Assembly: GCA_019429465.1 (NCBI GenBank)
Contig: JAHYIV010000009.1
Coordinates: forward strand, 1-64,000
Length of the DNA stretch: 64,000 nt
Direction: 5' to 3'
Source of the DNA: Desulfoarculaceae bacterium
GTDB taxonomy: Bacteria; Desulfobacterota; Desulfobulbia; Desulfobulbales; Desulfocapsaceae
In this document: positions 42,486 through 64,000 of the stretch, piece by piece
Position numbering within the stretch: the first letter of the stretch is position 1
Layout: every line of letters begins with the position of its first letter
Position numbers and translations under genes: made by a program
The notes under the pieces: model-generated
The model's input: only the letters and a program-made list of their open reading frames with translations
The model's database searches: none
What the model was told of the DNA's origin: nothing

Positions 42486-43349
42486 TCAGCCCTGGTTGCT
42501 GACCTGCATGATCATATAGCGACCATCGCTGACGTCAATATGGAGCAGCTTGCCCTTTTCCTGTAAGAGGAAGCGGTTGAGGGCAAAGAGAGGCAAGGTT
42601 TCGTAGTAGCCGCAGAACCCTTCGTAGGCGTAACGCCTCCATCCTCTCTTCAGGTTCATGATTTCTTCTCTCTCGGCCGCGGCAAAACGTTTGCCAAATG
42701 CCAGGCTGGCTCCCGGCTCGATCGATGCCAGCTGCTGCCGCAGTTGTTGTTTATCCAGGATCCTGGGGGTGACCTCAAGCGTTACCGCCGCCTCCTCATC
42801 AAGCTTGCCCAGCAGCATCCAGTTGCTGCCCTCGCCTAAGACAGTGGTCTGGTCACGACCCAGAATCTTTCTGGCCAGTTCCTGTCGGGGGATCCATTCA
42901 TCGATACCGCCAATGAGGGCCGCCTGCTCGCGGCCCAGGATCAAATCATTGCGGGCCACAAGCAGGGCCATCTGCACCGGAAAACGGTGATGGCTCAGAA
43001 AGAGGTTCTTGCCGCTCAGACCAAGATGGCTGGCAACATAAAAACCGGCGGAGTTACTGAGAAGATTGATGAAATCAATCGGCCGGGGCAGCTGGTTGCG
43101 AACATGCCGCTGGTCGCATATCCTCTCAAAGACCGAGATGTTTCCCTGCCCTGAGGTCATGTATGTCGCCGTCTGAGGCGACAGTTCCTGGCCTGCGGCC
43201 GCCATGTGTGCCCCGATAATTGCCAGTTGAATGAAATGGTCTGTCCGCCGATAGACCTTGCCGCTCAAGGCTCGCAACTTGGCGGCGAGATCCGGTTGGT
43301 GATGGTCCGGAATTGAATTATGGATGCCCATGGCGCGGATCGCAATCAT
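42486..43349 (-). CDS. Ketosynthase-like protein without catalytic Cys (chain-length-factor-like)
   Basis: The 287-residue protein has the outline of the first part of a beta-ketoacyl synthase, with TYMTSGQGNISVFERI and INLLSNSAGFYVASHLGL, but where active enzymes have TACSS it reads NLFLSHHRFPVQMALL. The Cys-His-His set is absent. Such partner subunits form heterodimers with an active ketosynthase in aryl-polyene and type II polyketide systems and help set chain length. It overlaps the active ketosynthase gene by four bases (ATGA), which supports a one-to-one complex. It is the last gene of the block 1 operon. Confidence 0.75.
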   Translation of the reverse strand: MIAIRAMGIHNSIPDHHQPDLAAKLRALSGKVYRRTDHFIQLAIIGAHMAAAGQELSPQTATYMTSGQGNISVFERICDQRHVRNQLPRPIDFINLLSNSAGFYVASHLGLSGKNLFLSHHRFPVQMALLVARNDLILGREQAALIGGIDEWIPRQELARKILGRDQTTVLGEGSNWMLLGKLDEEAAVTLEVTPRILDKQQLRQQLASIEPGASLAFGKRFAAAEREEIMNLKRGWRRYAYEGFCGYYETLPLFALNRFLLQEKGKLLHIDVSDGRYMIMQVSNQG

Positions 43350-44497
43350 GATGTCATCCGCGCGGTTTTCTCGATGATAAATGACGTATTGTTGCCGCCG
43401 AAACCGAAATAGTTAAGCATGAAGCATCCTGCTGTTACCGGCATGACTTCCTGCAGCGGAGCGGTGGAAATCTCGCGGTCAAGGGTTGTAAAATTGATCG
43501 TGGCCGGAATGAAGCCGGCATTGATGCTTTCTATCATCAGGACAAGCTCCGCCACCCCGCAGCCGCCAAGGGTATGGCCGATATAGGGTTTGAGCGAGAA
43601 GTAGGGCGGCAGCTCGGGAAAGGTCAGCGTCATCCCGCGCATTTCCGCCAGATCCATTGAATCACTGGCTGTTCCATGGGCCTTGATGGCCGTTATTGCC
43701 CCTGGAGGCAGATCGGCATCGGCCAGGGCATCGGCCATGACCCGGGAAATTCCACCACCGCTCGGGTCGGGGCCAGTCACACTGTATGTCTCGCAGCTGC
43801 TCTTGCCGCCAAGGTAGTGCCAGGGCGAGGGCCTGATATCGTCACGGCTGAGCAGCACTCCACTGACCGCTTCACCCAGGACCATGCCGTTACGGTTCTG
43901 GTCAAAGGGGCGCGGCATATCAGGGGAGAGGAGCTGCATCAGGGCGAATCCTTCGATGGTCGTCGGTGAAAAAAGCTCCAGGCCGAGCACCAGGGCATGG
44001 TCAATGATGTCGCCTGCCAGCATGGCTGCCGCATCCATCAAGGCGTTGGCGCTGGAGGTACAGGCGGTGCCGTAGGTTAAAGAGAGGCCCTGGAAGCCAA
44101 AGCGTTCCATCAGGCTGTCAGCGATATTTCCGCCTCCGACCCGTGCGCGTTGACAAGAGCTGGCTGCGGCAGAAATTGTCGCCTGTTCGATGGGCCGGGC
44201 CAGAGAGTAGTCAATGGAAGAGGAACCAAGAAATATCCCGATATTGGTGAGATCGGATGGCTCAAGGCCGAGCTTCTGTAACAGGCCGCCAACGACACGG
44301 TCAAGGGTGGCGTTGACGGTGGAAGTATCGGCCAGGCCGGGCGTGTCGGCAAGGCTGTAGTAGGGGTAGATCACCTGCCGGTCGTTGAGTCTGACCGCCA
44401 TGCTGCCGATCGTCGCCTTGCCGGCGCGCAGGGCCTGGATCTTCTGCGATCCTTGTCCCAGCGCACAGAGCAGCTTTCCGCCCACGATCGAAATCAT
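43346..44497 (-). CDS. Beta-ketoacyl-ACP synthase (KAS I/II type)
   Basis: The 383-residue enzyme extends an ACP-bound acyl chain with malonyl-ACP. The Cys-His-His triad is complete: YGTACTSSANAL (Cys near residue 146), IKAHGTASDSMDLAEM and KPYIGHTLGGCG. The C-terminal NYFGFGGNNTSFII closes the fold. It is shorter than primary-metabolism FabF (about 410) and resembles ketosynthases of aryl-polyene/flexirubin clusters. It follows the ACP gene by four bases and overlaps the degenerate partner gene. Confidence 0.9.
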   Translation of the reverse strand: MISIVGGKLLCALGQGSQKIQALRAGKATIGSMAVRLNDRQVIYPYYSLADTPGLADTSTVNATLDRVVGGLLQKLGLEPSDLTNIGIFLGSSSIDYSLARPIEQATISAAASSCQRARVGGGNIADSLMERFGFQGLSLTYGTACTSSANALMDAAAMLAGDIIDHALVLGLELFSPTTIEGFALMQLLSPDMPRPFDQNRNGMVLGEAVSGVLLSRDDIRPSPWHYLGGKSSCETYSVTGPDPSGGGISRVMADALADADLPPGAITAIKAHGTASDSMDLAEMRGMTLTFPELPPYFSLKPYIGHTLGGCGVAELVLMIESINAGFIPATINFTTLDREISTAPLQEVMPVTAGCFMLNYFGFGGNNTSFIIEKTARMTS

Positions 44498-44501
44498 CTG
44501 C

Positions 44502-44774
44502 TCACGAGCCCGGTTGAATAAAGTCTGCCAGCTCGTTAATGGTCGTTACATGACGGCGGAAGGCCTTGCTGTCAGGAAGACGTACCCCGAACTGGTTTTG
44601 CAGGGCAACCGATATCTGCAAGGCGTCGAGCGAGTCGAGTTCGAGGACGCAGGCATCAGAGAAAAGCTGCACGTGGTCAGCCACCTCAGCCGGCCTGATA
44701 TCTTCTTTCTCACATTCTTCGATGATCATAGTCTTCAGGCGCAGCTTCAACGCCGTATCCAGGGAGCCTTTCAT
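44502..44774 (-). CDS. Acyl carrier protein
   Basis: The 90-residue protein has the phosphopantetheine attachment site LELDSLDALQIS with Ser 48 and the usual acidic four-helix outline. The pattern FSDACVLELDSLDAL is close to ACPs of secondary lipid clusters. It lies between the exporter permease, which it overlaps by four bases, and the ketosynthase, so it is probably the carrier for the block 1 chain. Confidence 0.9.
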   Translation of the reverse strand: MKGSLDTALKLRLKTMIIEECEKEDIRPAEVADHVQLFSDACVLELDSLDALQISVALQNQFGVRLPDSKAFRRHVTTINELADFIQPGS

Positions 44775-46895: not shown

Positions 46896-46902
46896 ATCAA
46901 AC

Positions 46903-47901
46903 TCATCTCGCCGCCAGCAGTTGCCGGTAAACAGCTGCCTCGGCCTCGGCTACGTCTTCAAGTTTTGCCTGCAGGGCAGGAAAGTCCATGGTCTGGCCAT
47001 TTTTGCCGCGGATCGCCTTGGCCAGCAACAGGGCAAATTCGCGCCACTGATCGCCGACAGCGGTCATCATCTCCGAGGCCTCGGCCAGCTGGGGACTGTT
47101 CGTCAATCTGCCCGCCTCCTGGAGAAATGAGGCGTAGATAAAACGAAAACCGGCGCCGCCGGTGCCGATCTCTTCCTGCATGCGGACGATGTGGCCTAAA
47201 AAGAGTCTGGCATAGCGGAGGTCTTTTTTCCCCAGCCTGCCGATGTTTCTGGCTAAGGCCCGTATCCCGCGGATGCCGGCAATGGGCACCGGGGTTTTGA
47301 GCATGGCCCTGGCGTTTTTTTTGATGATCTTGGGGATGATGGTGGCGTAATCAATGGTTTCGGGGACGCTCACCGGGTAGTAGAGCAACCCTTTGGGTGC
47401 CATCACCCCTTTGACGAAACGGGCCTTTTGCAGATCCTCTGTTGCGCAGCGGACCGGTGCCTCGAAAACCGGATCACTGATCAGGTATTCATTGCCTTCT
47501 TTACCGTAGACGATCAGGTTGTGGGCATTAAAGTGGAAGCGCATCTCTTCTGGAAAGTAGGGGAGCCAGAAAACAGAGGTCTGGGCGCCGACGATTTTAC
47601 CCTGGGCCAGCAGACCGTCAAGGGCTTCCGTCCCCTGGCCGGGCCTGGAAAAGGTCTGCATCTGCATCTTGATGCCCAGATTTTTCTGCAGACCTTTGAT
47701 AATGGCCCTGGGCATCCGGCGATAGGCAATCAGCGGCATACCGCCGAGTTTCACAAAGGGAAGGTAGGCAAACATCAGGGCTCCCGACAGGCCGAAGGCC
47801 ATCGCCTCTGAGAGCTGGAGGCCATGATGGCGCATCATCAGCGACATCACCCCGCTTTCACAATGCGCTGAATGGCCATGGGTAAAGCCTGGATGAGTCA
47901 C
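46903..47901 (-). CDS. BtrH-like acyltransferase / peptidase-like protein
   Basis: The 332-residue protein begins with GFTHGHSAHCESGVMSLMM, the HxHC-type catalytic start of the BtrH N-terminal domain (cysteine protease-like fold). In butirosin synthesis BtrH transfers an acyl chain from an ACP to the antibiotic. Homologues occur in dialkylresorcinol and flexirubin clusters. A GTG start at 47901 is chosen because AGAGGAG precedes it and it overlaps the upstream stop in a GTGA. A likely role is to transfer the finished acyl chain from ACP to an acceptor such as the resorcinol. Confidence 0.82.
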   Translation of the reverse strand: MTHPGFTHGHSAHCESGVMSLMMRHHGLQLSEAMAFGLSGALMFAYLPFVKLGGMPLIAYRRMPRAIIKGLQKNLGIKMQMQTFSRPGQGTEALDGLLAQGKIVGAQTSVFWLPYFPEEMRFHFNAHNLIVYGKEGNEYLISDPVFEAPVRCATEDLQKARFVKGVMAPKGLLYYPVSVPETIDYATIIPKIIKKNARAMLKTPVPIAGIRGIRALARNIGRLGKKDLRYARLFLGHIVRMQEEIGTGGAGFRFIYASFLQEAGRLTNSPQLAEASEMMTAVGDQWREFALLLAKAIRGKNGQTMDFPALQAKLEDVAEAEAAVYRQLLAAR

Positions 47902-48311
47902 CGGTCGCTCCTCTTTGGGGGAAGCCGGACAAGTTCCGCGGCGCTGATGCCGAGAGCGTCGGCATAGCGGGCCAGCATCTTTACTGACAGCCTGGCAAAG
48001 ATGCGCGGCTTGAAATGGCGCCTGATCCGCCACTTGCACATGGTGGCGGATTCGGCCAGCACCTGCGGATCCATCCGCCGGTTATACATGTGGAAGTATA
48101 ATGGTGACATCTCACCGGCAACCACTCTGTCGTAGGCGTCATCGGCCAGGCGTTCAAGCTCGGCCAGTGCCTGTTTGGTGGCCACTTCTTCAACATCCCA
48201 GCCCGATGAGGCGACAATGGTGTAGTCGCCATGGGTATCGGTGGCATAGATCGCTTTTTTGTTGCTGGCATAGGTTGATATCTGATGCTGAGGGACCTTG
48301 GATGTATCCAT
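47898..48311 (-). CDS. Conserved small protein of the dialkylresorcinol-like operon
   Basis: I do not recognise this 137-residue protein. It is soluble, with no membrane segment. The end, MLARYADALGISAAELVRLP, looks like the last helices of an XRE-type helix-turn-helix, but the first half of such a domain is not seen. Its ATG follows the DarB-like stop directly and its stop overlaps the BtrH-like start, so it is surely translated with the operon. It may assist BtrH or DarB; it could also be an autoregulator. Confidence 0.6.
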   Translation of the reverse strand: MDTSKVPQHQISTYASNKKAIYATDTHGDYTIVASSGWDVEEVATKQALAELERLADDAYDRVVAGEMSPLYFHMYNRRMDPQVLAESATMCKWRIRRHFKPRIFARLSVKMLARYADALGISAAELVRLPPKRSDR

Positions 48312-49460
48312 CTATACCACCGTCAGATGCATAAAGGCGGTGGAGAAACGGCCGCTTTCCGGGATGTAGCAAAGCAGGGCCTCCCCTTTCCGCAGACGGT
48401 CCGAGTTAAAGAGCTCTTCGAGGATAATATAGATCGAGGCCGAACCGGTATTGCCTTTGGAACTCAGATTTGTAAACCACTTTTCCTGGGGGATAGTGCA
48501 TCCGGCGGCCTGCATCCCTGCAGCCACCTTGTCGCGGAAGAAGCCGGAAGAGTAGTGCGGCAGGAACCAGTCCACTTTTTCCGCCTCGATTCTGCCCTGT
48601 GCGACCAGCTCCTGCAGGGGTCTGGTCACCGTGTATTCGATGATCTTGTCGTTGAGCAGCTTGACGTCTTGTTTAATGGCAAAGATGGATTGCTCCAGCC
48701 ATTCCGGGGGCAGGTACTCCCGCCATCCCTTCAAGGAACCGTCGGCCATCTTTTCCGCCCCACCATACATACAGGGCTCAAGATCGCCGGCGTAGGACTT
48801 CTGGAAGATCCAGTCGATCCGCAGGGAGTTGCCGTGACCTTTAGGCCGATCACTCATCCATACCGCCCCGGCGCCGTCGCTGAGCATCCAGCGGAGAAAA
48901 TCTTTGGCAAAGGCGATCTCCGCTGGTTTGGCCGGCAGTTCGGCCTCTGATTTGGTCTCTTCCGAGAAGTTACGTCCGCGCATGATGGCCGAGGCGTTTT
49001 CAGAGCCGGTGGCCACCCCGTTCTTACTCTGGCCGGCGCGGATTGATAAATAGCAGTACTTCAGGGAGGTCAACCCTGAAAGACAGATGCCGGCGGTGGC
49101 AATGGCTTCACAGGGTGGAATGCCCAACTCTCCGTGGACCATCAGGGCGTGGTTTGGCAGGAGCTGGTCGGGCAGGGTCGTACCGCAGGCCAGAAGCTCG
49201 ATGGTGTTGATATCGCAACCCTGCTCCGCCAGTTGGCGTACGGCTTCAGCAACCATCCGGGCGTTGCTGTGGGTCGTCTCCCCTGTTGCCGGGTCAATGG
49301 CATAATATCTGGATTGGATCTGGTTACTGCGCAGGATCAGTTTGCGGACCCGTGATGGCCGCGTGTTGACCTGGCCCAGGACTGATTCCATGGCGTCGTT
49401 GCCAACGGATGCATTGGGCAGAAAAGCCGCGATATTGGTAATGTAAACCTGTTGAGACAT
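48312..49460 (-). CDS. DarB-like beta-ketoacyl-ACP synthase III
   Basis: The 382-residue thiolase-fold enzyme has the KAS III triad: Cys 126 in ATAGICLSGLTSL, His in DWFLPHYSSGFF and Asn in SSKGNTGSASIYI. DarB joins two beta-ketoacyl chains to a cyclohexadione on the way to dialkylresorcinols. The neighbouring DarA-like gene, nine bases upstream, supports this assignment over a FabH initiator role. AAAGGA precedes the start. Confidence 0.85.
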   Translation of the reverse strand: MSQQVYITNIAAFLPNASVGNDAMESVLGQVNTRPSRVRKLILRSNQIQSRYYAIDPATGETTHSNARMVAEAVRQLAEQGCDINTIELLACGTTLPDQLLPNHALMVHGELGIPPCEAIATAGICLSGLTSLKYCYLSIRAGQSKNGVATGSENASAIMRGRNFSEETKSEAELPAKPAEIAFAKDFLRWMLSDGAGAVWMSDRPKGHGNSLRIDWIFQKSYAGDLEPCMYGGAEKMADGSLKGWREYLPPEWLEQSIFAIKQDVKLLNDKIIEYTVTRPLQELVAQGRIEAEKVDWFLPHYSSGFFRDKVAAGMQAAGCTIPQEKWFTNLSSKGNTGSASIYIILEELFNSDRLRKGEALLCYIPESGRFSTAFMHLTVV

Positions 49461-49469
49461 TTTTTCCTT

Positions 49470-50381
49470 TTATCTGCCGGAAGGCTGTTCATATGAGGAG
49501 ACAGCTGCTTCTATTGCTTTTTTTCTAAACGGGTAGATGATTTTACGGAGCAACATATTCAAGGGGACAACGGTTGCAACCAGTATCAGCAGGAAGAGTG
49601 CATAGATGGTGATGACAATATTGCGTCCCGGCGAATTGGGCGGGCCTGCTTTTTTTATGAGTGTGCTCCAGATCAGAAAGCTGCGGTGAGCGATGCGCTC
49701 GGTGGCAATTAATTTGCCGTTGACATTGACCGCGCCCATATTGGCGAGCAGCGGACCCTTGTGCTGTTCTTCATTGTTATGTAAAGCCGCGCAGAGGCGT
49801 TCGCCAAAACGAGACGCTGCCCCGATGGCCTCCTCGGCAACGCCGGCCTTGGGGAAGAACCAGAAGGCATCTTTTTTCCCGGTAAGCATCCAGCGCGGCG
49901 TAGTGACAAAGGTGTAGAGCGATTTTCCCTGATCCGTCAGCACGACATTGTCGATCAGCCGGGCGCCAAGACCTGCCAGCAGCGATTTCATTTTTTCCTG
50001 GGCCATGAGCCACATGTCACGGCAGGCGATCACCGTCACCACCGGTGTATCTTTAAAAAGTCTTTTCGCCTGAATCGTTTGCAGAAATCCGGTCACTGGA
50101 ATGGAAGGGGAGAGGAACCATGAGGTATAGCCCAGAACGATCAAATCATACTTCTCCTCGGCCTTGACTGGTTCTACCTCGCAGCCATCGAGGTAGACGG
50201 CCTCGGGGAAGACGTTGAAGAAGGCATAAAAAGACCAGGGGTAGGGATAGGGCCGGAGTGGTTGTATCTGACGATAATCACACTGCACCTCATCGCATTG
50301 CTCCAGCGGGGCCACGAGAGTGTCGAGCACCCGTTTGAGCTGCCCGCTTTGAGAATAATAGAGAATCAGTATCTTTTTCAT
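49470..50381 (-). CDS. DarA-like flavoprotein (dialkylresorcinol pathway)
   Basis: The 303-residue protein starts with a flavodoxin-type FMN loop, ILILYYSQSGQLKRVL, and keeps the flavodoxin core to about residue 165 (LIVLGYTSWFLSPSIPVTGF, VVTVIACRDMWL). A membrane helix near the end (IVITIYALFLLILVATVVPL) anchors it. DarA homologues aromatise the cyclohexadione formed by DarB to the resorcinol. The ATG at 50381 gives the typical MKKILILYYSQ start; ATG 50396 is possible. A small frame ends on this start codon (TGATG). Confidence 0.83.
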   Translation of the reverse strand: MKKILILYYSQSGQLKRVLDTLVAPLEQCDEVQCDYRQIQPLRPYPYPWSFYAFFNVFPEAVYLDGCEVEPVKAEEKYDLIVLGYTSWFLSPSIPVTGFLQTIQAKRLFKDTPVVTVIACRDMWLMAQEKMKSLLAGLGARLIDNVVLTDQGKSLYTFVTTPRWMLTGKKDAFWFFPKAGVAEEAIGAASRFGERLCAALHNNEEQHKGPLLANMGAVNVNGKLIATERIAHRSFLIWSTLIKKAGPPNSPGRNIVITIYALFLLILVATVVPLNMLLRKIIYPFRKKAIEAAVSSYEQPSGR

Positions 50382-50527
50382 CAAATTATAGTCCATTGCC
50401 AAAAAAAGAGGTCCATGAATAGCTTCTTGTGGAGAATTAATCCATTGTTAAAAAAGTGTCCATTCTTATGCGCGGCGAAAATGCCACCGATCAAGAGAGC
50501 ATAACCAAGAAAAAAAAACTTGTCCAT
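50381..50527 (-). CDS. Possible 48-residue membrane peptide coupled to the DarA-like gene
   Basis: A minus-strand frame from ATG 50527 to TGA 50381 codes FFFLGYALLIGGIFAAHKNG and a second hydrophobic end. Its stop overlaps the DarA-like start. AGGAGG lies 11 bases before this ATG and six bases before another ATG (50532) in a different frame, whose product is only 13 residues long. A run of nine T residues within the first codons could allow slippage between the two. It may be a true small membrane protein or a leader. Confidence 0.35.
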   Translation of the reverse strand: MDKFFFLGYALLIGGIFAAHKNGHFFNNGLILHKKLFMDLFFWQWTII

Positions 50528-52949: not shown

Positions 52950-53069
52950 TACCAAAGGAAACTTGGGGGACACTGTTATCTGTTTTTTTTTAATTCGTTC
53001 AATAGATAAGAGCGTCCCCCTTGTTCTACTTTGTCACATTACCCATCACTCTGCCGTTTGTATGCAGAG

Positions 53070-55463: not shown

Positions 55464-56318
55464 TTATCTCCCATCTCTCAGGATCTTTCTGATCCAGGCA
55501 GGAGGCGTGACCCTGCCGCCGCTGATATCCCGCATCCGTAGCCCTGTGACGGTCTCACAAGGTCTTCCTTCGGTGTCAAAAACAGCCAGATCAAAAACAA
55601 GTTCGTCCGCGGCCCGGGACACGGGAATGACGAAGGTGCGGTACTGTTCTCCTGCTTTTGTCGCCTGGTGAATGACCCGTCGGGTGAAACCGACCGGGAA
55701 GGGTACAAAATCGGCCATGCATTGGCCGAGGACACAGGCGGCATGCATGGCGCCATCCAGGGGAAATGGCGATCCCAGCGTTTTTTGCAGATCTGGTCCC
55801 TCGCCAGGAGCTGGTGTCTGCAGGCGGCCCCATGCCCCTTGTCTTGAAAGATAGAGAGGGCCAGTCAGGGTGCGATAGCCTGGGCCAAAGGGGACCAGCT
55901 CCTCATAGATCTGCTCTGAGGCAACCGAAGCGGCTGATTTTGGTGGTGGCGAGGCCATGATCTGTCTGGCCGTCAGTTGCGGTGAGTTGGCTGCAAAGGT
56001 GATCTCTGCGTGTTCCCGGCTTCGCGTTATTTTTTTGAACTGAATCCGGCTGAGCAGCTTGATGCGGATCTCACCCTGGCCTCTGGTCTCATATTCTATC
56101 CGCGCTGCTATCTCTGATCTCTCGGGCGGGATCTCGAGAAACTTTGAAAAACGGGCCTCGCTCATCACCATCGGGTCCATGTCGGCATCGATCTCATTGA
56201 CCGCGGAGGCCAGTATCTCCATGATCTCCACGGCCGGCAGGATCACCCTGTCGTTGAAAAAATGGTCCTTGAACCAGGGCTGGACGGCAATAATCAGGGG
56301 CCTGCAGTTTGGGCTCAT
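55464..56318 (-). CDS. Polyketide-type dehydratase (double hot-dog) family protein
   Basis: The 284-residue protein has WFKDHFFNDRVILPAVEIME near its start, the pattern of the first hot-dog of PKS dehydratase domains (H...G/N...LPA...E), and a second half ending VIHQATKAGEQYRTFVIPVS and FDLAVFDTEGRPCETVTGLR, as in PS-DH domains. Such a protein would remove water from beta-hydroxyacyl chains, or bind the chain if inactive. The start is taken as ATG 56318, 19 bases after the thioesterase stop; the longer frame overlaps that gene. Confidence 0.7.
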   Translation of the reverse strand: MSPNCRPLIIAVQPWFKDHFFNDRVILPAVEIMEILASAVNEIDADMDPMVMSEARFSKFLEIPPERSEIAARIEYETRGQGEIRIKLLSRIQFKKITRSREHAEITFAANSPQLTARQIMASPPPKSAASVASEQIYEELVPFGPGYRTLTGPLYLSRQGAWGRLQTPAPGEGPDLQKTLGSPFPLDGAMHAACVLGQCMADFVPFPVGFTRRVIHQATKAGEQYRTFVIPVSRAADELVFDLAVFDTEGRPCETVTGLRMRDISGGRVTPPAWIRKILRDGR

Positions 56319-56337
56319 TGGCGACCGTTTACCATCA

Positions 56338-56817
56338 TCAGAAGGGAAATTGCTGCCAGAGCTGGATCGTCTGGTCATCGATCTCGACCGGGATACCCCT
56401 GCTGTTGACGGCACAGTGTCTGGTGAAGCCTGTGCAGATAATTTCTCCATCCTCGGCCCTGGTGATGAGATAGTCAAACTGCAGTTTCACCAGTTCCTGT
56501 TTCCCCGGGCGGGTGTGGATGAACATCAGATCATCATAATGGAGGGGGGTATGATAATTGAGCTCGGTTTTGATAATGGGGTAGATGTAGCCGCTTTCCT
56601 CAATCTTTTTATAGGGATAATTGGCCTCCCGCATGAGTGAGCCCCTGCCGAATTCAAAATACCTGAGATAATTGGCATGATAGACCACCTGCGATCGGTC
56701 GGTGTCAGCATAGAGGGTCCGCATTTCACAGCGATGCCAGATCTTGCCGGTCCCGGCATCGGTGACATGGGAAGGATGGCCTGGTACTGGTTCAGGGATA
56801 AACGGTTTTGGTCGCAT
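56338..56817 (-). CDS. 4-hydroxybenzoyl-CoA-type (YbgC-like) acyl thioesterase
   Basis: The 159-residue hot-dog protein has RTLYADTDRSQVVYHANYLR and YFEFGRGSLM, the active-site region of 4HBT/YbgC thioesterases with the conserved Asp. It may release the acyl chain from ACP. ATG 56817 is chosen; the longer frame runs back into the ketosynthase gene. It lies 49 bases after that gene and 19 before the dehydratase-like gene. Confidence 0.82.
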   Translation of the reverse strand: MRPKPFIPEPVPGHPSHVTDAGTGKIWHRCEMRTLYADTDRSQVVYHANYLRYFEFGRGSLMREANYPYKKIEESGYIYPIIKTELNYHTPLHYDDLMFIHTRPGKQELVKLQFDYLITRAEDGEIICTGFTRHCAVNSRGIPVEIDDQTIQLWQQFPF

Positions 56818-56866
56818 TATCGTGTGTCTTTTCGTTGTTCCCGCGCGCGGAGATGGAGATTCTTTT

Positions 56867-58132
56867 TTAACAGCCCTTAAAGACAAGGCAGCAGTTGGTA
56901 CCGCCAAAGCCAAATGAGTTGGAAAGGACATATTCATAGGTCGAGTTGCGTGCCTGGTTGGGCACAAGATCAAGATCAGCAAAGGCCGGGTCTGGAATGT
57001 GATTGATTGTCGGCAGGAGCACTCCTTGAGACATGGCCTCGATACTCAGCGCCGCTTCAATGGCCGCCGATGCCCCCAGGCTGTGGCCCACCTGCGATTT
57101 ATTGGCCGTGATGGGGATCCGACCGATGCCCTTACCGAAGACTGCGCGCAGACATTCCACCTCGGTTGCATCTCCGGTCGGGGTTGATGTCCCGTGGGCA
57201 TTGATGCTGCCGATATCCGCCGGGCTCAATTCGGCATCATCAATGGCGGCCTTGATTGCCCGGATAATGGTAGTCGCATTGGGCCGGGTAAAATGATGGG
57301 CGTCAGAGCTCCAGCCAATGCCGGCTATCTCCGCCTTGGCCTGCAGGCCCAGTGAGCTCACCATCTCCGCGGCGGCAAGGACCAGTACTCCGGCGCCTTC
57401 AGAGAGGACAAATCCTTTACGATCCAGGCTGAACGGCCGTGAGGCCTGACTGGGGTCATTATGGGCACGATCCTTCGGCCCCACCTTGATCGTTGCCAGC
57501 ATATTGGAAAATCCCTGGATGATCTCCGGCACCAGGCAGGTCTCAACGCCTCCGACGAGGGCAAAGTCACAGTCGCCGTCGCGAATCATTCTGGCGCCCA
57601 GGGCAATGGCATAGTTGGCCGAGGCGCAGGCCGCCTGAGGCGAAAAAATCGGCCCGGTAAAGCCCAGCAGCATCCCGGCCTTGCCGGCCGGCAGATTGGC
57701 GCAGACATTGGGCAGCAGGTAGGGGCTGACCTTGAAGGGCCCCCGGTTTACATAATTGTCCATGGCGATACGATAGGAATCGGTACCGTTCAAGGCCGAA
57801 CCGATCAGGCAGGCGGTCCGGGGGCCTGTCAGGCCGTTGATCTCCAGGCCGGCATGGGCCATGGCCTCCCGGCAGACCTCCATGGTCAGAAACATGGTGC
57901 CGGCATCCCAGACAGCGGCCTCTTTAGGGCTGACGTATGAGAGCTGGGTCGGATCCCAGTCCGGGATCTCTCCCACCACATTGCAGCGACTGCTGGTCTT
58001 GCATTTGCTGATCCGGCGAAATCCGGCGCCTCCGGCAACAGCGGCCTGCCAGGTCTTGCTGAAGGTGTTGCCCAGGGCAGTGGCGGCGCCGTAGCCGATA
58101 ACAAAGACTTTTCTGTTGAGTGGTGCTTTCAT
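56867..58132 (-). CDS. Beta-ketoacyl-ACP synthase (FabF-like), block 2
   Basis: The 421-residue ketosynthase has all three active-site residues: Cys 169 in SPQAACASANYAIAL, His in INAHGTSTPTGDATEVE and His in KSQVGHSLGASAA, and ends NSFGFGGTNCCLVF. It is paired with a second FabF-like gene 190 bases upstream, with a miniature repeat between them. Two active ketosynthases of this type together with radical SAM genes recall gene sets proposed for ladderane lipids; the substrate is not known. Confidence 0.92.
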   Translation of the reverse strand: MKAPLNRKVFVIGYGAATALGNTFSKTWQAAVAGGAGFRRISKCKTSSRCNVVGEIPDWDPTQLSYVSPKEAAVWDAGTMFLTMEVCREAMAHAGLEINGLTGPRTACLIGSALNGTDSYRIAMDNYVNRGPFKVSPYLLPNVCANLPAGKAGMLLGFTGPIFSPQAACASANYAIALGARMIRDGDCDFALVGGVETCLVPEIIQGFSNMLATIKVGPKDRAHNDPSQASRPFSLDRKGFVLSEGAGVLVLAAAEMVSSLGLQAKAEIAGIGWSSDAHHFTRPNATTIIRAIKAAIDDAELSPADIGSINAHGTSTPTGDATEVECLRAVFGKGIGRIPITANKSQVGHSLGASAAIEAALSIEAMSQGVLLPTINHIPDPAFADLDLVPNQARNSTYEYVLSNSFGFGGTNCCLVFKGC

Positions 58133-58173: not shown

Positions 58174-58327
58174 GTAACTATCCAGCTTAATGCCGGGAAA
58201 ATGCCAAAACACATGTCACGTAACTATCCGGCAGTGCCTCATATGCGGGAAAGGGGCCTGCGAAGTGTACTGATTCGTCCATGAGCAGACCGATGACGAA
58301 GCAGATGAGGTGCTGCTGGATAGTTAC
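58174..58327 (-). repeat. 154-bp GTAACTATCCAG-ended repeat, copy 2
   Basis: This is the inverted copy of the element at 19480-19633. It fills nearly the whole gap between the two ketosynthase genes. Its right end supplies the TAA stop of the upstream ketosynthase (58324-59577), so it inserted exactly at, or redefined, the end of that gene. Confidence 0.85.
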
Positions 58328-59577
58328 ACTCGTTTAAACACTGCGCAGCTGTTACAGCCGCCGAATCCAAAGGAGTTTTTCAGGATATATTCCTGAGTCA
58401 ATTGTCTTTTCGTCCCAGCCACGCAGTCGATGTCGATTTCCGGGTCGGGAAAGTAGTTGATGGTTGGCGGCAGCATCTCCTCCTGCATCGATTGAATGGC
58501 GAAGACGGATTCTATGACGCTGGAAGCGCCCATGGCATGGCCGATCAGCGATTTATTGGCGGAAACAGGCGGTATCGCCTGGCCAAACACGGCCTTGAGG
58601 GCGTCAAATTCGACCTTGTCACCGACCCGGGTGGAGGCGGCATGGGCGTTGACCGCGGCAATGTCGGCTGGAGTGATGCCGGCGTCAGTGATGGCATTCT
58701 GCATGCACTGTCTGATCGTGGCAAAATGGGGGGCGACAAAATGGTGGGCATCCGAGGTCATTCCCCAGCCGGCGAGTTCGGTGGTAAAAGGCAGGCCATG
58801 GCTTCTGGCAAATTTGCGGCTGGCAAGGATCACTGCCCCGGCCCCTTCCGAGAGGACAAAGCCGCGACGATTGGCGGAAAAGGGGCGGCTTGCCGCCTGC
58901 GGTGACCCCTCTTCCTCGCCCTCTTTGGGGATAAACACGCCGTTCATGGTGTAAAAACCGGCCACGATCGGTTCCACCAGGGCAAAATCAACGGCGCCGC
59001 AGATGGCAACATCGGCCTTATCCTGAGCCAGGAACATGGCTCCGATAATTATGGAGGTAAGTCCGGTGGCACAGGCAGTGACGGCGGAGACGATAGGTCC
59101 CTGGGCCCCTGTCTGGATGGCGATCTTGCCGCCCACCATGTTGATGCAGGCGTTGGGGTTGGTGTAGGGGTGGGGGAGTCTGTTTTCGGCCTGCAGGCGC
59201 CGGTCGGCAGTCAGCACGGCATCGAGTCCGCCAATGGCTGAACTGTAGGTCACAGCCACTCTGGGAGCGAGTTCCGGGGTGATCTCCAGGCCGCTGCGTT
59301 CAAGGGCCCTGGCCACCGAGAGCATGCCATATTTGAATACCGGGGAACTCCAGCTGGCTTGATGCCTGGCCGCGAGAAAGGGGTAGGCGAGATGGTCAAT
59401 GTCTGCAACCTGGCCGGCAATGCGCACCGGAAAATCAGGGGAAAGCGGAAAACGGCTCAGCGCACCGATGCCGCTTTCCCCGGCCAGGGCGCGTTGCCAC
59501 TGTTCCTCCAGGTTGATTCCCAGGGGCGAGATGGCGTCAAAGCCGATGATGACCGGTTTATTACTCACCATCATCAA
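58324..59577 (-). CDS. Beta-ketoacyl-ACP synthase (FabF-like), second copy
   Basis: The 417-residue ketosynthase has Cys 169 in SAVTACATGLTSIIIGA, His in VNAHAASTRVGDKVEF and His in KSLIGHAMGASSV. The second motif has Ala where the family has Gly-Thr (NAHGTST). It ends NSFGFGGCNSCAVFKRV and its stop codon lies in the adjacent repeat. It is only distantly similar to the other FabF-like protein, so the two probably act at different chain lengths or substrates. Confidence 0.92.
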   Translation of the reverse strand: MMMVSNKPVIIGFDAISPLGINLEEQWQRALAGESGIGALSRFPLSPDFPVRIAGQVADIDHLAYPFLAARHQASWSSPVFKYGMLSVARALERSGLEITPELAPRVAVTYSSAIGGLDAVLTADRRLQAENRLPHPYTNPNACINMVGGKIAIQTGAQGPIVSAVTACATGLTSIIIGAMFLAQDKADVAICGAVDFALVEPIVAGFYTMNGVFIPKEGEEEGSPQAASRPFSANRRGFVLSEGAGAVILASRKFARSHGLPFTTELAGWGMTSDAHHFVAPHFATIRQCMQNAITDAGITPADIAAVNAHAASTRVGDKVEFDALKAVFGQAIPPVSANKSLIGHAMGASSVIESVFAIQSMQEEMLPPTINYFPDPEIDIDCVAGTKRQLTQEYILKNSFGFGGCNSCAVFKRV

Positions 59578-59582
59578 TCATC

Positions 59583-60644
59583 TTACCAGGGGATAAACTG
59601 GTAGAGCTTGGCGAACATCTCATACACCTCAACCCAGTTCTGCAGATCCTCTGTGCTCTTCATATGGGCCCGTTTGTTGACCATGACCCAGCTCATGTGG
59701 GCAGCGCCGTCCTTACAGGTGGAGCAGTCGCGGGTTTCAGAGGTGCAGCAGCGGTGCATGGTCTTCAGGTCCGAGGCCCAGCGGATAAAATTGGTGAGAC
59801 GTTTGGGACGGGGATCACGTTTGTCGATGGGGTCGGTGACCGAAGGACACTCCATCCAGCCGAATTTTCTGCCCAGCATTGAGCCCGTGGTGATAATTTC
59901 ATGGTAATACTTTGAGGAGATAACCGTCTTCGGGTAGGCATCAAGCATGGCATCCATCTCTGCCCGTATGGCAATCAGCTCTTCCGGCTTCCAGGAAAAA
60001 CCGGCAACATCCTCGTCGTTGGAGAGCAGCTGCATGTGCACCTTCAGGCCGATATCTTCAACTTTTTGAATGATCTTCCCTGTCTTGCCCAGCTGTTTCG
60101 GGGTGATGGTGTACAGGTAATAGGCATGCGGATCACCGGCATAATTGGCGCTGGTGATCTTGAAGGTGTCTTTGCCGCGCAGGGCCTTTTCATCCTCTTC
60201 GTCCCCCCACAACGACAGGCCGACCATCATGTCGGGAAAACGGTCCCTGGGCACCTTGATCAGGCCATTGGTGGCGCAGAAGGTGGGTAAACGCTTATAA
60301 AAGGCCTCGATCCGGTCCAGACATAGGGTGGGCTCACCACCGATGAGAATGGCCAGGTTCACCCCGCGCTCCATCTCCTTGTCGACAAAGCCGTGCCATT
60401 TGTTGATGTCATTTTCTTCCGAGGCCCGCTCATGCTCACCCGAGGAGAAGAAGAAACAGCCCTTGCAGCGGAGGTTGCAGCGGTCTGTTACGTCATAGAT
60501 GGAACTGCGGATGTTGAGCCTTGATATCTTTTTATAACGCTCATACCAGTGATCATCGAGGAGGGAGCTGACTGTTTTCATGGCAGGCAAGGAGGTTCGG
60601 TCTCCGGAATTGAAGAGTAGGTCGTGATTGGTTTGCTGTTTCAT
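59583..60644 (-). CDS. Radical SAM protein with extra C-terminal Cys cluster (1)
   Basis: The 353-residue protein has the [4Fe-4S]-SAM motif C-x3-C-x2-C in DRCNLRCKGCFFF (Cys 56, 60, 63), the GGEP motif (ILIGGEPTL) and a C-terminal set of six Cys (MECPSV; HRCCTSETRDCSTCKDG) that could hold a second cluster, as in SPASM or twitch domains. It would start radical chemistry on an unreactive carbon. The next gene upstream is a clear paralogue. It starts four bases after that gene and stands six bases before a ketosynthase, so it probably acts on the ACP-bound or released chain. Confidence 0.88.
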   Translation of the reverse strand: MKQQTNHDLLFNSGDRTSLPAMKTVSSLLDDHWYERYKKISRLNIRSSIYDVTDRCNLRCKGCFFFSSGEHERASEENDINKWHGFVDKEMERGVNLAILIGGEPTLCLDRIEAFYKRLPTFCATNGLIKVPRDRFPDMMVGLSLWGDEEDEKALRGKDTFKITSANYAGDPHAYYLYTITPKQLGKTGKIIQKVEDIGLKVHMQLLSNDEDVAGFSWKPEELIAIRAEMDAMLDAYPKTVISSKYYHEIITTGSMLGRKFGWMECPSVTDPIDKRDPRPKRLTNFIRWASDLKTMHRCCTSETRDCSTCKDGAAHMSWVMVNKRAHMKSTEDLQNWVEVYEMFAKLYQFIPW

Positions 60645-60648
60645 GTCA

Positions 60649-61698
60649 TTAGAGGGCTGGCGGTTCGATCATCTCTTGGCAGAGGGTCGCACTCTTTTCA
60701 TATCCCCTGACCCAGACGGCGAGATAGGTGTCGACATAGTCGAGCCAGGCGGCAAAGGTGGTCGGATTAGTGGCATGGCGATACATCCTGGCGGTGACGA
60801 CCGCGCTGCCGGCGGCATAATGGCGGCAGTCGGCGCAGTCGGTATCCGGGACGCAGCAGGCGGCGTCCCGATCCCACTGCAGGTCGGTGCGATACTGGCG
60901 AAAGGATCTGCCCAGGCCGATAGCGGTCGAAGGGTTCATCCGCGGATAGGAGCAGGAGAACAGCTCGTGCAGGCCCCGCTCATGGGTGTGGGCCACACTG
61001 TTATAGGGAGAAAAGAGCACGGTCCGCGGAAATTCGGCCAGCAGTTCGCTCATGACGGCCCGGGTGCGGGCCAGGGTCTCCGGCGTGTGCCGCAGATGGC
61101 CCTGGTATCCCACCGGCGATGAAAACATGTTGAAGGTGATCTGGTGGCCGTTGTCTGCCAAAAGCTCGGTGACCTCCCGGGCCTCGTCGATATTGACCGG
61201 GGTGAAGGTGTAGACCCAGACGGCCCTGGGATCATTGCGGTAATTCGCCATCTGCCGGGCCAGCATATCCTTGGCCTTTCTGATCTCAAGGCTGGTCTGG
61301 TCATTGCCCCAGACCGAGATGTGGACACGGTAATCAATTTCCCTGGGCAGCACCTTCAGGCCGTTGCTGGCAATGCAGCCCAGGGGGATGGTGTCAAAGC
61401 AGGTTTGACACAGCTGCGGGACCAGGGAAGGCTCGGCGCCGGCCAGGACGACAAAGGTGATACCCCGTTCCTTCTCCGTCTCCATGAGCTGCTGCCAGTC
61501 GGCCACGTTGAGATTTTCTGCGGCGAACTGTTTTTCCCCGGTGAAATAATAGCATCCTTCGCAGCGGATATTGCAGCGATTGGTCATGTCATAGGTGGAT
61601 TCGCGCAGAAAAAAATATTTGCGGACCTTTTCCCACTGGCTATGGATTACCGGATCAGCCAGGATCTCCGAGAATTTGTAGTGTCTGTCGTCTGCCAC
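60649..61698 (-). CDS. Radical SAM protein with extra C-terminal Cys cluster (2)
   Basis: The 349-residue paralogue of the next gene has C-x3-C-x2-C in NRCNIRCEGCYYF (Cys 42, 46, 49), a GAEP motif in place of GGEP (VVLAGAEPSLV) and the C-terminal Cys group FSCSYP and ACCVPDTDCADC. The start is a GTG directly after the stop of the dehydratase-ACP gene. Paired paralogues of this size within a fatty-acid cluster suggest successive or heterodimeric radical steps. Confidence 0.88.
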   Translation of the reverse strand: MADDRHYKFSEILADPVIHSQWEKVRKYFFLRESTYDMTNRCNIRCEGCYYFTGEKQFAAENLNVADWQQLMETEKERGITFVVLAGAEPSLVPQLCQTCFDTIPLGCIASNGLKVLPREIDYRVHISVWGNDQTSLEIRKAKDMLARQMANYRNDPRAVWVYTFTPVNIDEAREVTELLADNGHQITFNMFSSPVGYQGHLRHTPETLARTRAVMSELLAEFPRTVLFSPYNSVAHTHERGLHELFSCSYPRMNPSTAIGLGRSFRQYRTDLQWDRDAACCVPDTDCADCRHYAAGSAVVTARMYRHATNPTTFAAWLDYVDTYLAVWVRGYEKSATLCQEMIEPPAL

Positions 61699-62322
61699 TT
61701 AGTCGTCTTCCGCCTGTTTTTTGGTGATATACTCGGCAATAATGCGCACGGTTGTCAGCTTGGGGTAGTCATCTTCGTCAATCCTGATCCCGTACTCATC
61801 ACGCAGGATCAGGGCAATGGTGGCCAGATCCATGGAGTCAACACCGATCTCGTCAACCAGGTCCAGGTCAGCGTCAAAGGTCTGCGGGGTAACATCTTCG
61901 AGCTTGAGCTCGTTGATGATGATTTCGGCAATGCGAAGGATTGTCGGGGCAATATCAGTGTTCATGAAAAGTTTTTTCTCCTCTTTAGGGGCCAGTGTCA
62001 GGATACCGGAACAGACATCTTCCTGTCTGCTGCTGATACGAAACGAATAGGTGTTTTCTTTGTTCCCGGCAAGGATGCTGATATCCAGGATTTCTCCAGG
62101 CCGGACAAGCTTTTTGAATTTAATCCTCGTTAAATCAATCAGATGCATGTCCATGACCAGGGCCTTGGCCACAATGTCGGTCACCATCTGCAACTGGGCA
62201 ATGCCCGGTAAAATGGGGTCACCGGGAAAATGTCCGGAAAACCAGGGCGACTGCGGATCTGTTGTCACCTGAGCTGTGATCGCATCATCACGCTGTTGTA
62301 CTGAAATAGATGAATACCACAT
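61699..62322 (-). CDS. ApeI/FabZ-like hot-dog dehydratase fused to an acyl carrier protein
   Basis: The 207-residue protein has an N-terminal hot-dog domain with SGHFPGDPILPGIAQLQM; His 31 is the catalytic His, but the Glu of FabZ is Gln 45, as fits ApeI-type dehydratases of aryl-polyene clusters, where that residue also differs. From about residue 120 comes an ACP with the pantetheine Ser 163 in DEIGVDSMDLATIALIL. An in-frame ATG at 61965 with GAGGAG upstream could also give a free 88-residue ACP. I start at ATG 62322; a TTG at 62382 is the other choice. Confidence 0.85.
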   Translation of the reverse strand: MWYSSISVQQRDDAITAQVTTDPQSPWFSGHFPGDPILPGIAQLQMVTDIVAKALVMDMHLIDLTRIKFKKLVRPGEILDISILAGNKENTYSFRISSRQEDVCSGILTLAPKEEKKLFMNTDIAPTILRIAEIIINELKLEDVTPQTFDADLDLVDEIGVDSMDLATIALILRDEYGIRIDEDDYPKLTTVRIIAEYITKKQAEDD

Positions 62323-62410
62323 GGAGAAATTTGTTGCATGTCCCAAAATTATTTTTCGATTGATCGGCCGCTCTGCTCTCAAAGAGTGCGGTTATGTCTT
62401 TGCTGGCGGT

Positions 62411-63760
62411 TCAGCGGATCAAATACTCCCAGAGAGGGCCGGTGTAGCCCCGTTTATGCATCCTGGCAACCGTAGCTGCCGCTGCCTTCCCTCCGGAACC
62501 AACTATCCAGTTTATCCGATCAGCAGCCTTCTGCCCAATGATTTTTTCAATGGCGGCATGATTAATGGCATCACTTTCATAGAACACAGGCTGCAGGAGA
62601 TCCGTGGCAGCTGTGATCTTGTTTTCCCTGAGTGCGATATCATAGAGGGCGGTGTGGGGATAGATCCTGATGCCGGTAAAAAAGAAGAGGGCGGTTTTTT
62701 TGAGTGAGTCGACAGCATTCAGGGTTTCAGCTATCGTATCTGCTGATTCGCCGGGACCGCCGAGGAGAAAGTAATGCGCCACGTGCAGTCCGGCATCCAG
62801 CGCCTGATTATGGGCCGTCAGGACATCCGCGGGCCGGAAGGGTTTGCAGTAGTTCTGCAGCATGGCGGCAGACAGGGATTCGGTGCCGAATTCCACATGT
62901 TTCAGGCCGGCGTCACCCATGATCCTGAAATAGTCCGGCGGCAGCCTGGTCGGGGCAAAAAACCCACCCCAGGGGATGGAGACCGCGGATCTGCGGAAGG
63001 CTGCAGCCACTGCCAGGCTGTGGGCTATATCCGAGTTAAAGGCGGAATCGGTGATGAAAAAATATTTTGCTCCGGCCTCCTGCAGGGCCAGGGCTGTCCG
63101 GGCCACCTCGTCGGGCGGGACCAGGCGATGTTTGTTCCCTTCAATATGAGGATAGGGGCAGTAGATGCAGCGAAATGAACAGCCCCGCTTGGTCTGCAGG
63201 TTCAGCATCCCTCCATGTTCCAGGTAATAGTGATGGTGGGAGGAAGAGGTCTTGCCGAAATTCCGTTCCTGCACTCCGGCCCAGGGTACGATAGCGGCAT
63301 CTGGTGCTGAGGCGCTGATCAGTCCCGGGATGGCGGAGAGCGGCTGCCTGGTGTCCAGGGCCTCCACCAGCATGGCAAAGCGCTCTCCTTCGCCTGCAAT
63401 GCCATAATCAAGGGCCAGGGCGGTGAGAATCTCCCCGGGGAGAATGGTGAATCCGGCGCCGCCGCCGACCATGACAGCCCGGCTCCGTGCCCGCAGCCAG
63501 CTGACCAGTTCCTTCTGTGCTTCTATGAAAAAGAGGGGGTCGCCGGCCTCGGTATTGTCAATGTTTCTGATGGAAATGCCGATGATATCCGGCGGGAAAG
63601 CGACAAGAAGGGATGCCAGTGCCTCCCGATCAAGAATATTCAGATCCGCTATCCGCACCTCATGCCTGGCAGAGACCGCCCCGGCAACATAGTCAAGGCC
63701 TATGGGATAGACAGGGTAGGGGACGGTGAGGGTGTTGGGGGAGATGAGCAGAATCTTCAT
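62411..63760 (-). CDS. Cobalamin-binding radical SAM protein
   Basis: The 449-residue protein has an N-terminal B12-binding Rossmann domain (KILLISPNTLTVPYPVYPIG, then DIIGISIRNID and VMVGGGAGFTILP) without the DxHxxG cobalt-ligand motif, so cobalamin would bind base-off. The radical SAM domain follows with KRGCSFRCIYCPYPH (Cys 194, 198, 201). Such enzymes methylate unactivated carbons or rearrange rings. The ATG at 63760 overlaps the stop of the upstream ketosynthase-like gene in an ATGA. Confidence 0.9.
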   Translation of the reverse strand: MKILLISPNTLTVPYPVYPIGLDYVAGAVSARHEVRIADLNILDREALASLLVAFPPDIIGISIRNIDNTEAGDPLFFIEAQKELVSWLRARSRAVMVGGGAGFTILPGEILTALALDYGIAGEGERFAMLVEALDTRQPLSAIPGLISASAPDAAIVPWAGVQERNFGKTSSSHHHYYLEHGGMLNLQTKRGCSFRCIYCPYPHIEGNKHRLVPPDEVARTALALQEAGAKYFFITDSAFNSDIAHSLAVAAAFRRSAVSIPWGGFFAPTRLPPDYFRIMGDAGLKHVEFGTESLSAAMLQNYCKPFRPADVLTAHNQALDAGLHVAHYFLLGGPGESADTIAETLNAVDSLKKTALFFFTGIRIYPHTALYDIALRENKITAATDLLQPVFYESDAINHAAIEKIIGQKAADRINWIVGSGGKAAAATVARMHKRGYTGPLWEYLIR

Positions 63761-64000
63761 GAGCACCCAAACTCCATGGCGGTAATGGCCGTGCCGAGCC
63801 CGAGGACCAGGATTTTTTTACCGGACAGTGAGAAGCCCTTGCTGCCCGCCGCCACCAGTCCGGCCGGGAACTCTCCTCTCTGCAGAAATTGAACCGCCAT
63901 GACAGCAGCAAGGGCAGAGGCAGAGGCGAACTGGCCGGTGAATTGCCGGTAGTGGAGCACAGGAACGGCCAGGGCTGTCTTGCTGATAAATTCCGCCAGC
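63757..64000 (-). CDS. C-terminal part of a degenerate ketosynthase (partial)
   Basis: The last 80 residues of a gene that continues past the window read FTGQFASASALAAVMAVQFL and later KKILVLGLGTAITAMEFG. This aligns with the end of beta-ketoacyl synthases (family pattern GHTLGAAGAL), but the catalytic His is Gln here. It is probably a chain-length-factor-like partner. It overlaps the cobalamin radical SAM gene by four bases and shows that the cluster extends beyond base 64000. Confidence 0.6.
   Translation of the reverse strand, partial: LAEFISKTALAVPVLHYRQFTGQFASASALAAVMAVQFLQRGEFPAGLVAAGSKGFSLSGKKILVLGLGTAITAMEFGCS

Follow-up and report, generated by a model that had tools for sequence, protein, structure and literature searches.

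The window analysed here is the whole stretch of 64000 bases that opens contig C5 (bases 1-64000 of 87760 bp; JAHYIV010000009.1) of a Desulfocapsaceae genome of 2.84 Mb, assembled in 72 contigs and 94.8% complete. It carries part of a set of lipid/polyketide genes that we read, with moderate confidence, as one interrupted supercluster reaching from about 31.6 to 86.2 kb of the contig and yielding a dialkylresorcinol (DAR)-polyene lipid or pigment akin to arcuflavin and flexirubin and suited to strictly anaerobic bacteria. Within it lies a seven-gene unit that includes two radical S-adenosylmethionine (SAM) proteins, rSAMa and rSAMb; both families fall below every curated cut-off, carry invariant, auxiliary-cluster-like cysteines, and are almost always accompanied by one set of five acyl-chain genes. 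Likely homologues of the ladderane candidates of anammox bacteria sit inside this DAR-polyene-type cluster as well. No description of a locus uniting DAR genes with rSAMa/rSAMb was found in the literature covered, which was mostly open-access.

All the named genes lie on the minus strand, at the positions given in a preliminary description made from the DNA letters, and nearly all of its names hold up, most of them against Pfam and NCBIfam models. The window's cluster genes form two blocks, 42486-50402 (Block 1) and 54267 to past 64000 (Block 2). Block 1 holds the DAR (dar) genes:

42486..43349 (-): degenerate ketosynthase (KS) partner, similar to a chain-length factor (CLF), darK position; 287 aa, no Pfam match, Cys-His-His motifs absent
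43346..44497 (-): ketosynthase KS1, darJ position; PF00109/PF02801, Cys-His-His present
44502..44774 (-): acyl carrier protein (ACP), darC position; PF00550
44771..45979 (-): ABC-2 permease, darI position; PF12698
45972..46895 (-): ABC ATPase, darF position; PF00005
46903..48039 (-): BtrH-related acyltransferase DarH (Azoarcus darE); NF053550 DarH_acyl, 498.6 bits (cut-off 300)
47898..48311 (-): DarG-family protein, Azoarcus darD position; NF053536, 167.6 bits (cut-off 70)
48312..49460 (-): DarB, dialkylresorcinol-forming ketosynthase; NF005293, 583.9 bits (cut-off 450)
49470..50402 (-): DarA-like flavodoxin-type protein; no Pfam or NCBIfam match

The last of these, putatively DarA, owes its name to its place beside darB, no hidden Markov model having matched it; homologues 73-83% identical adjoin DarB in nine relatives. 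With NF053539 (resorcinol_DarB), an "exception" model of narrower scope whose cut-off is 550, DarB itself falls short at 496 bits. The DarH reading frame probably starts near 47.9 kb, the NF053550 match beginning at residue 52, and the degenerate KS partner has homologues of 59-75% beside the KS in genomes G014 and G041. In Azoarcus sp. BH72 the dar order is darA-B-D-E(BtrH-like)-F-(G,H)-I-C-J-K, according to Schoner 2014 (PMC3949708), and Block 1 repeats this order minus the Azoarcus genes darG and darH.

Block 2 and its continuation on the contig comprise the following main genes:

54267..54989 (-): GT25-like glycosyltransferase; PF01755, weak
55464..56477 (-): polyketide synthase-type double hot-dog dehydratase PSDH; PF14765/PF21089, DHxxxxxxxLP and LDGAMH motifs
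56338..56982 (-): 4HBT thioesterase (TE); PF13279, TIGR00051 above cut-off
56867..58132 (-): FabF-like ketosynthase KSa; TIGR03150, 363 bits (below cut-off), Cys-His-His
58324..59577 (-): FabF-like ketosynthase KSb; TIGR03150, 348 bits (below cut-off), Cys-His-His
59583..60581 (-): radical SAM protein rSAMa; CNLRCKGC
60649..61698 (-): radical SAM protein rSAMb; CNIRCEGC
61699..62382 (-): ApeI-like dehydratase-ACP fusion (DH-ACP); PF22818, 33.1 bits (cut-off 28.5), and PF00550
62411..63766 (-): B12-binding radical SAM protein (B12r1), placed by a tree in the type B clade of TIGR04072 (rSAM_ladder_B12); 370.6 bits (cut-off 360)
contig 63757-65922 (-), 3' end in the window at 63757..64000: KS-CLF fusion, 721 aa; Cys-His-His in the N half only
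contig 69268-70533: second B12 radical SAM gene (B12r2)
contig 83631-84680: SPASM radical SAM gene (rSPASM)
contig 84545-86164: phytoene-desaturase-like amine oxidase (AmOx)

The seven genes from DH-ACP through rSAMb, rSAMa, KSb, KSa and TE to PSDH make up the unit. rSAMa and rSAMb are 31% identical and have one CxxxCxxC motif each. In 42 aligned rows apiece, the three motif cysteines are invariant, together with those of a C-terminal CC-x6-C-x2-C in rSAMa and CC-x5-C-x2-C in rSAMb, and this C-terminal CC...CxxC would fit an auxiliary iron-sulfur cluster. No family model in Pfam or NCBIfam reached its curated cut-off with either protein. As a profile searched against solved chains at E <= 0.01, rSAMa matched SkfB alone (E 0.003), and no rSAMa relatives occurred in the viral collection. 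The best matches of the structure models (mean predicted local distance difference test score, pLDDT, 75 for rSAMa and 81 for rSAMb) are radical SAM enzymes at template modelling (TM) scores of about 0.3-0.6, namely TigE, AbmM and a sactipeptide maturase for rSAMa, and BlsE, SuiB and viperins for rSAMb; both models drop below pLDDT 50 in stretches around the cluster-binding cysteines, and the matches do not reveal a substrate. Among the acyl-chain genes, the dehydratase part of DH-ACP lies nearest to solved chains 3esi and 6qsr, the latter presumably an ApeI-type domain, and PSDH nearest to the fluvirucin DH domain (E 1.6e-4). PSDH probably starts near 56318 and TE near 56817, about 74% of the long TE frame being covered in most relatives.

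Beyond the window, KS-CLF (for which 6qsp, presumably ApeO-ApeC, is third among the nearest solved chains) is followed by an ACP (ACP2), a FlxB-like short-chain dehydrogenase/reductase (SDR), a LolA-like protein and a 246-aa protein without a family. Among NCBIfam models, the SDR scores best with FlxB (292 bits, cut-off 340), although it also passes a general FabG model (288 over 273), and the LolA-like protein scores best with LolA2_flexi (78.5 bits, cut-off 125). After B12r2 and an insert come an AMP ligase, a DegV/DAK fusion, a GT2 glycosyltransferase, an LpxL-like acyltransferase, a further ketosynthase (KSc), a PlsC-like acyltransferase and a BchE-like B12 radical SAM gene. The contig continues to base 87760 and its cluster genes reach about 86164, so that the three radical SAM enzymes of the preliminary description are indeed present in the window, yet belong to a larger locus with three further radical SAM genes and six in total. 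The insert, at contig 70579-74360, encodes a NYN-LOTUS protein, an IS200-type transposase, a RhuM-family protein and a Fic-like-C/ATPase.

Conservation of the unit was assessed in the best 80 of 291 confirmed relatives, 34 of which are fully flanked (9 kb or more on the upstream side, 7 kb or more downstream), on gene maps made by tblastn with proteins of the window's genome, which miss diverged genes. All seven genes are present in 34/34 fully flanked loci, and the order of the six from rSAMb to PSDH is constant in every one of the 60 loci that hold all six; the other 20 of the 80 lack one or more of the six, a contig end explaining most cases. The GT25-like gene is present in 24 of the 34, and B12r1, KS-CLF, ACP2, SDR and LolA in 23-25. 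More distant genomes reorder the unit; for example, KSb sits between rSAMa and rSAMb in G132, and G138 has an extra rSAMa copy without rSAMb. A sample of the phylum gave rSAMa matches at E <= 1e-10 in 22 of 297 genomes, and 21 of these hold an rSAMa at least 71% identical with rSAMb no more than 3.5 kb away, the 22nd having a single 33% match. The closest named rSAMa relatives are Desulfobulbaceae/Desulfocapsaceae metagenome-assembled genomes, and the cassette also occurs in Desulfosarcina widdelii (no KS-CLF match seen there) and the Olavius algarvensis Delta 4 symbiont. It is complete in the purple sulfur gammaproteobacterium Thiorhodococcus mannitoliphagus DSM 18266 (L205), which has DarB elsewhere in its genome, and whose B12r1 groups with that of Desulfobulbus rhabdoformis in the tree (support 98/94), pointing to transfer between distant groups. 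Since the arrangement is conserved across families and in this one gammaproteobacterium, it is very unlikely to have arisen by chance.

The DAR genes and the unit likewise tend to occur together. A search of 257 genomes from the order found rSAMa (E <= 1e-60) in 86, DarB (E <= 1e-100) in 97, both in 68 and neither in 142, an odds ratio of 18.5. Genome-level Fisher values ignore kinship and overstate certainty, and the genus-level table is safer: 22 genera have both, 2 rSAMa only, 13 DarB only and 32 neither. DarB thus accompanies rSAMa in 68/86 genomes and 22/24 genera, which bears out the earlier proposal of a single lipid/polyketide locus joining dialkylresorcinol genes to radical SAM genes; the possibility raised with it, that the two blocks never co-occur in relatives, does not hold, yet 18 of the 86 rSAMa genomes lack DarB. 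The two genes share a contig in 26 of the 68 genomes, lying no more than 30 kb apart in 18 of these and no more than 60 kb apart in 23. DarB also tracks a wider lipid block: 88 of 97 DarB genomes hold rSAMa or a TIGR04072 match of at least 337 bits, and the remaining 9 fall among the 129 genomes with neither. Four further rSAMa genomes were searched, and DarB was present in two of them (Thiorhodococcus and Desulfatitalea alkaliphila).

The cluster appears interrupted in this genome by genes that its relatives do not all share. Here, the two blocks are split at 51205-54127 by the following insertions, both outside the pathway:

51205..52806 (+): PKD-repeat protein; PF18911/PF22352
53070..54127 (-): IS3-type transposase genes; PF00665, PF01527

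In G014, of the same genus, the DarA and GT25 matches lie about 0.35 kb apart, i.e., the blocks adjoin, and in G041 the interval from GT25 to DarA shows only exporter and deacetylase genes; judged by the relatives, the GT25 gene (54267-54989) counts as part of the cluster. The PKD-repeat protein matches the C-terminal part of the myxosortase-dependent M36 metallopeptidase model NF038112 (246 bits, cut-off 1500). Cluster membership in relatives extends further to contig 63757-86164 and, on the other side, to 31580-35460, where two genes are found:

31580..32392 (-): polysaccharide deacetylase; PF01522, 111.7 bits; compare arcN, the FlxP-U set and Kuste3351
32389..35460 (-): MMPL-type exporter fused to a SAM methyltransferase, 1023 aa; PF03176, PF13489; compare arcP plus arcM

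The MMPL-methyltransferase has homologues in 7 of the 14 contig sets examined, with 50-80% identity along almost the whole protein, and the deacetylase adjoins that gene in five of the 14 (G041, G008, G400, G143 and G014). Between this pair and Block 1 lie housekeeping-like genes for a saccharopine dehydrogenase, a decarboxylase, BacA, a lytic transglycosylase and a Cys/Met metabolism enzyme.

Characterized pigment clusters, of the kind that links a polyene acid to a dialkylresorcinol through an ester, provide the closest parallels. Besides its dar genes, Azoarcus sp. BH72, whose clusters are assigned to arcuflavin (xanthomonadin-dialkylresorcinol), carries arc genes for a methyltransferase, deacetylase, exporter, LolA, acyltransferase, dehydratase, AMP ligase and ACP, and further arc genes for a KS, an N-terminal-KS protein, a reductase and a glycosyltransferase (PMC3949708). 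All of these classes were found here; the halogenase, MltA-interacting protein, antiporter, histidine kinase and regulator stand outside the comparison. This locus differs in that KS and CLF are fused, no chorismatase was found, and the gene set is enlarged by the seven-gene unit, by an FAD desaturase-like gene and by radical SAM genes, six in all. With the flexirubin clusters of Chitinophaga pinensis and Flavobacterium johnsoniae (PMC3992019), it has in common the DAR and polyene genes, a FlxB-like SDR, a LolA2-like protein, a deacetylase, an acyltransferase, a glycosyltransferase and an exporter; by contrast, no member of the PF00221 tyrosine ammonia-lyase family was found here, radical SAM genes are added, and the FlxB and LolA2 models stay below cut-off. 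The genome contains both a DAR block and a polyene block (KS-CLF, ACP, ketoreductase, dehydratase, LolA, exporter, acyltransferase and AMP ligase), and the cluster was not filed as an aryl polyene because the 94.8%-complete genome gave no tyrosine lyase or chorismatase match (PF00221, TIGR04444, PF04345).

From the gene content, order and conservation, the co-occurrence, the catalytic motifs and the absence of three aryl-starter families, we infer a pathway whose reactions, ester link and outer-membrane destination would be as follows. DarA, DarB and the ACP of Block 1 would make a 2,5-dialkylresorcinol, which DarH would probably esterify with a polyene acyl chain. That chain would be built by the KS-CLF fusion with an ACP, the ketoreductase and the ApeI-like dehydratase, and LolA, the acyltransferases, the glycosyltransferase and the MMPL and ABC exporters would deliver the product to the outer membrane. 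The seven-gene unit would make or tailor the far end of the chain. Specifically, its two ketosynthases and two dehydratases would assemble a short acyl-ACP for modification by the radical SAM pair, the thioesterase would free the acid, and the AMP ligase would reload that acid as a starter, replacing the aryl acid of the tyrosine lyase or chorismatase. Such a starter role, taken by itself, is a tentative suggestion of low probability. It is tempting to go further and propose a new anaerobic starter or end-group route, in which the radical SAM pair closes or rearranges a carrier-bound chain into an aromatic or cyclic acid that would stand in for aryl acids derived from tyrosine or chorismate, although this must be regarded as rather doubtful. 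On that view, the ladderane candidates of anammox bacteria would be cousins of the same anaerobic machinery for polyenes. Parts of the cluster are present in Desulfofustis glycolicus DSM 9705, Desulfogranum mediterraneum DSM 13871 and T. mannitoliphagus DSM 18266; as these are culture-collection strains, the role of the radical SAM and desaturase-like genes can be tested without recourse to anammox bacteria, for which PMC4790861 states that there was no pure culture.

The dar half of the cluster comes in two types among the genomes whose contigs were mapped. Where DarB is 71-100% identical to that of the window, a DarA match adjoins it in 10/10 genomes, and the window's dar block is of this DarA type. 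At 48-54% identity, 15 of 16 genomes have no DarA match, the exception being G138 with a 37% DarA; in 13 of those 15, the DarA-less DarB has a B12-type radical SAM gene no more than 1.5 kb away, and in the other two DarB sits at the end of the fetched stretch. This second type was seen in contigs of G056, G055, G044, G030, G029, G009, G017, G036, G020, G034, G040, G008 and G143. Desulfofustis glycolicus DSM 9705, in which a DarB and the radical SAM unit are 10 kb apart, likewise has a dar block lacking a DarA match. The existence of two types suggests that the dar half has been exchanged between related clusters, and in the second type the B12 radical SAM enzyme may replace DarA, perhaps as an anaerobic substitute.

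The preliminary description had likened the window to the proposed ladderane clusters, and TIGR04072 is the model through which the likeness can be measured. In the order sample, 39 matches score 555-629 bits (type A), and the rest, including the window protein at 370, score no more than 401. The tree contains 11 type A and 25 type B rows (support 82/94 and 83/65), with both sides drawn open and very distant outgroups. rSAMa lies within 8 kb in 22 of the 25 type B rows; it is 9.2 kb away in G095 and about 9 kb away in G009, outside the stretch used for that genome, and G034 ends with its contig. Only one of the 11 type A rows (G029) has rSAMa nearby, and 32 of the 39 type A genomes in the whole order sample lack it. 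Five of the seven that have it belong to genus g14 (G029, G465, G471, G473 and G475) and carry rSAMa no more than about 7.5 kb from the type A gene, so that type A clusters, too, can include the unit; in the other two, it is about 28 kb away (G017) or on a different contig (G474).

The type A cluster of G040 runs AmOx, KS, ACP, membrane protein, AMP ligase (AMP-binding by Pfam, phenylacetate-CoA-ligase-like by eye), SPASM radical SAM, an unknown protein, B12 radical SAM, TIGR04072 B12 radical SAM and glycosyltransferase. Rattray 2009 (PMC2649909) describes DP1860 of Desulfotalea psychrophila as phytoene-dehydrogenase-like and matches two radical SAM genes of that species, DP1855 and DP1853, with Kuste3343 and Kuste3342 of Kuenenia stuttgartiensis. 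In the latter, a phenylacetyl-CoA ligase, Kuste3344, bears the number next to Kuste3343. Because the G040 order matches the DP numbering gene by gene, the ladderane-candidate pair is most likely rSPASM/B12r2, with homologues here outside the window, and rSAMa/rSAMb a different pair; the assignment rests on locus numbering and not on the anammox or Desulfotalea sequences. The equation of the in-window pair with the ladderane pair was accordingly rejected as most likely wrong, the G040 order fitting DP1860...DP1855...DP1853. In common with the Kuenenia/Desulfotalea clusters (PMC2649909), the present locus has a TIGR04072-passing B12 radical SAM gene, further radical SAM genes, a phytoene-desaturase-like gene, FabF paralogues and a glycosyltransferase. 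It differs in its rSAMa, given the rarity of that gene among Desulfotalea-like type A genomes, and the likeness is one of genes alone.

Several findings weigh against a single DAR-polyene product, and some of them would suit two products instead, with Block 1 making a free dialkylresorcinol or an ordinary-fatty-acid ester, the later blocks an independent polyene or polyunsaturated lipid, and the two as neighbours in a membrane-lipid island, an arrangement that is nonetheless unlikely. The 18 rSAMa genomes without DarB include near-complete ones of family f12, genus g29 (G047, G172, G225 and G333), so the radical SAM unit must work without this resorcinol gene in those genomes and the two halves are not strictly interdependent; conversely, 29 of the 97 DarB genomes lack rSAMa. 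Two of the four further rSAMa genomes lack DarB. DarB is remote from rSAMa in G414 (159 kb) and, at 1.57 Mb, in G447 of genus g6, while the distance is only 7.3 kb in G436 of the same genus; 13 of the 15 g6 genomes with both genes have them on different contigs of draft assemblies. Many relatives have a different dar block, with DarB at about 50% and no DarA match, near the unit or far from it. The unit itself varies: at least four of the 80 loci lack genes for which there is room, namely rSAMb on the upstream side in L150 and L204 and, at the thresholds applied, TE and PSDH on the downstream side in L170 and L174. With regard to chemistry, DarH owes its name to an NCBIfam model, and its ester-forming step is putative; the AMP ligase bears only a weak likeness to 4-coumarate-CoA ligase (108 bits, cut-off 335); and the incomplete genome shows no match to the three models PF00221, TIGR04444 and PF04345, but another family could supply an aryl starter. 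Two separate products are harder to reconcile with the co-occurrence at genome and genus level, the adjacency in several families and the 88 of 97 DarB genomes that hold rSAMa or a TIGR04072 match of at least 337 bits. Moreover, the two arc loci of Azoarcus are unlinked, yet one DAR-polyene ester is their proposed product (PMC3949708).

A second alternative, an anaerobic polyunsaturated fatty acid or a hydrocarbon of the C31:8/C31:9 type as proposed for D. psychrophila, with no resorcinol link, is quite improbable. It draws on the report (PMC2649909) that D. psychrophila has a cluster syntenic with the candidates of K. stuttgartiensis, that its hydrocarbons include C31:8 and C31:9, and that no ladderanes were found in it. 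The window's contig does have homologues of the type A genes rSPASM, B12r2, AmOx and KSc, and the genome encodes an OleA-like KSIII (L210, contig C37, 36952-37983; NF006720, 436 bits, cut-off 285). No OleB/C/D-looking neighbour of that gene was seen by eye in 20 kb, however, no genome-wide OleB/C/D search having been made, and the absence of rSAMa from 32/39 type A genomes implies that the unit does not belong to the gene set common to type A clusters. The open reading frame next to the OleA-like gene is AmmeMemoRadiSam-like by eye. Least probable, and very unlikely in our view, is that the radical SAM enzymes make a ladderane or some other membrane lipid with fused rings. The likeness noted at the outset survives in that B12r1 narrowly passes TIGR04072, that the six radical SAM genes, the phytoene-desaturase-like AmOx and the extra ketosynthases parallel the K. 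stuttgartiensis list, and that the unit sits beside a type A B12 gene in five g14 genomes; it fails in the in-window pair, which probably differs from the ladderane-candidate pair. The window protein also scores far below the type A clade, and the type A order itself fits D. psychrophila, where ladderanes were not detected (PMC2649909). Likewise, anammox candidates expressed in E. coli gave no ladderanes, most of the detected proteins being pellet-only (PMC4790861). Nothing found points to the fused rings that had been suggested, and a DAR-polyene product remains the favoured reading of the locus.

Well outside the cluster, the window encodes a type I restriction-modification system at 3030-12203, with HsdM, HsdS and HsdR (PF02384, PF01420 and PF04313) all on the plus strand.

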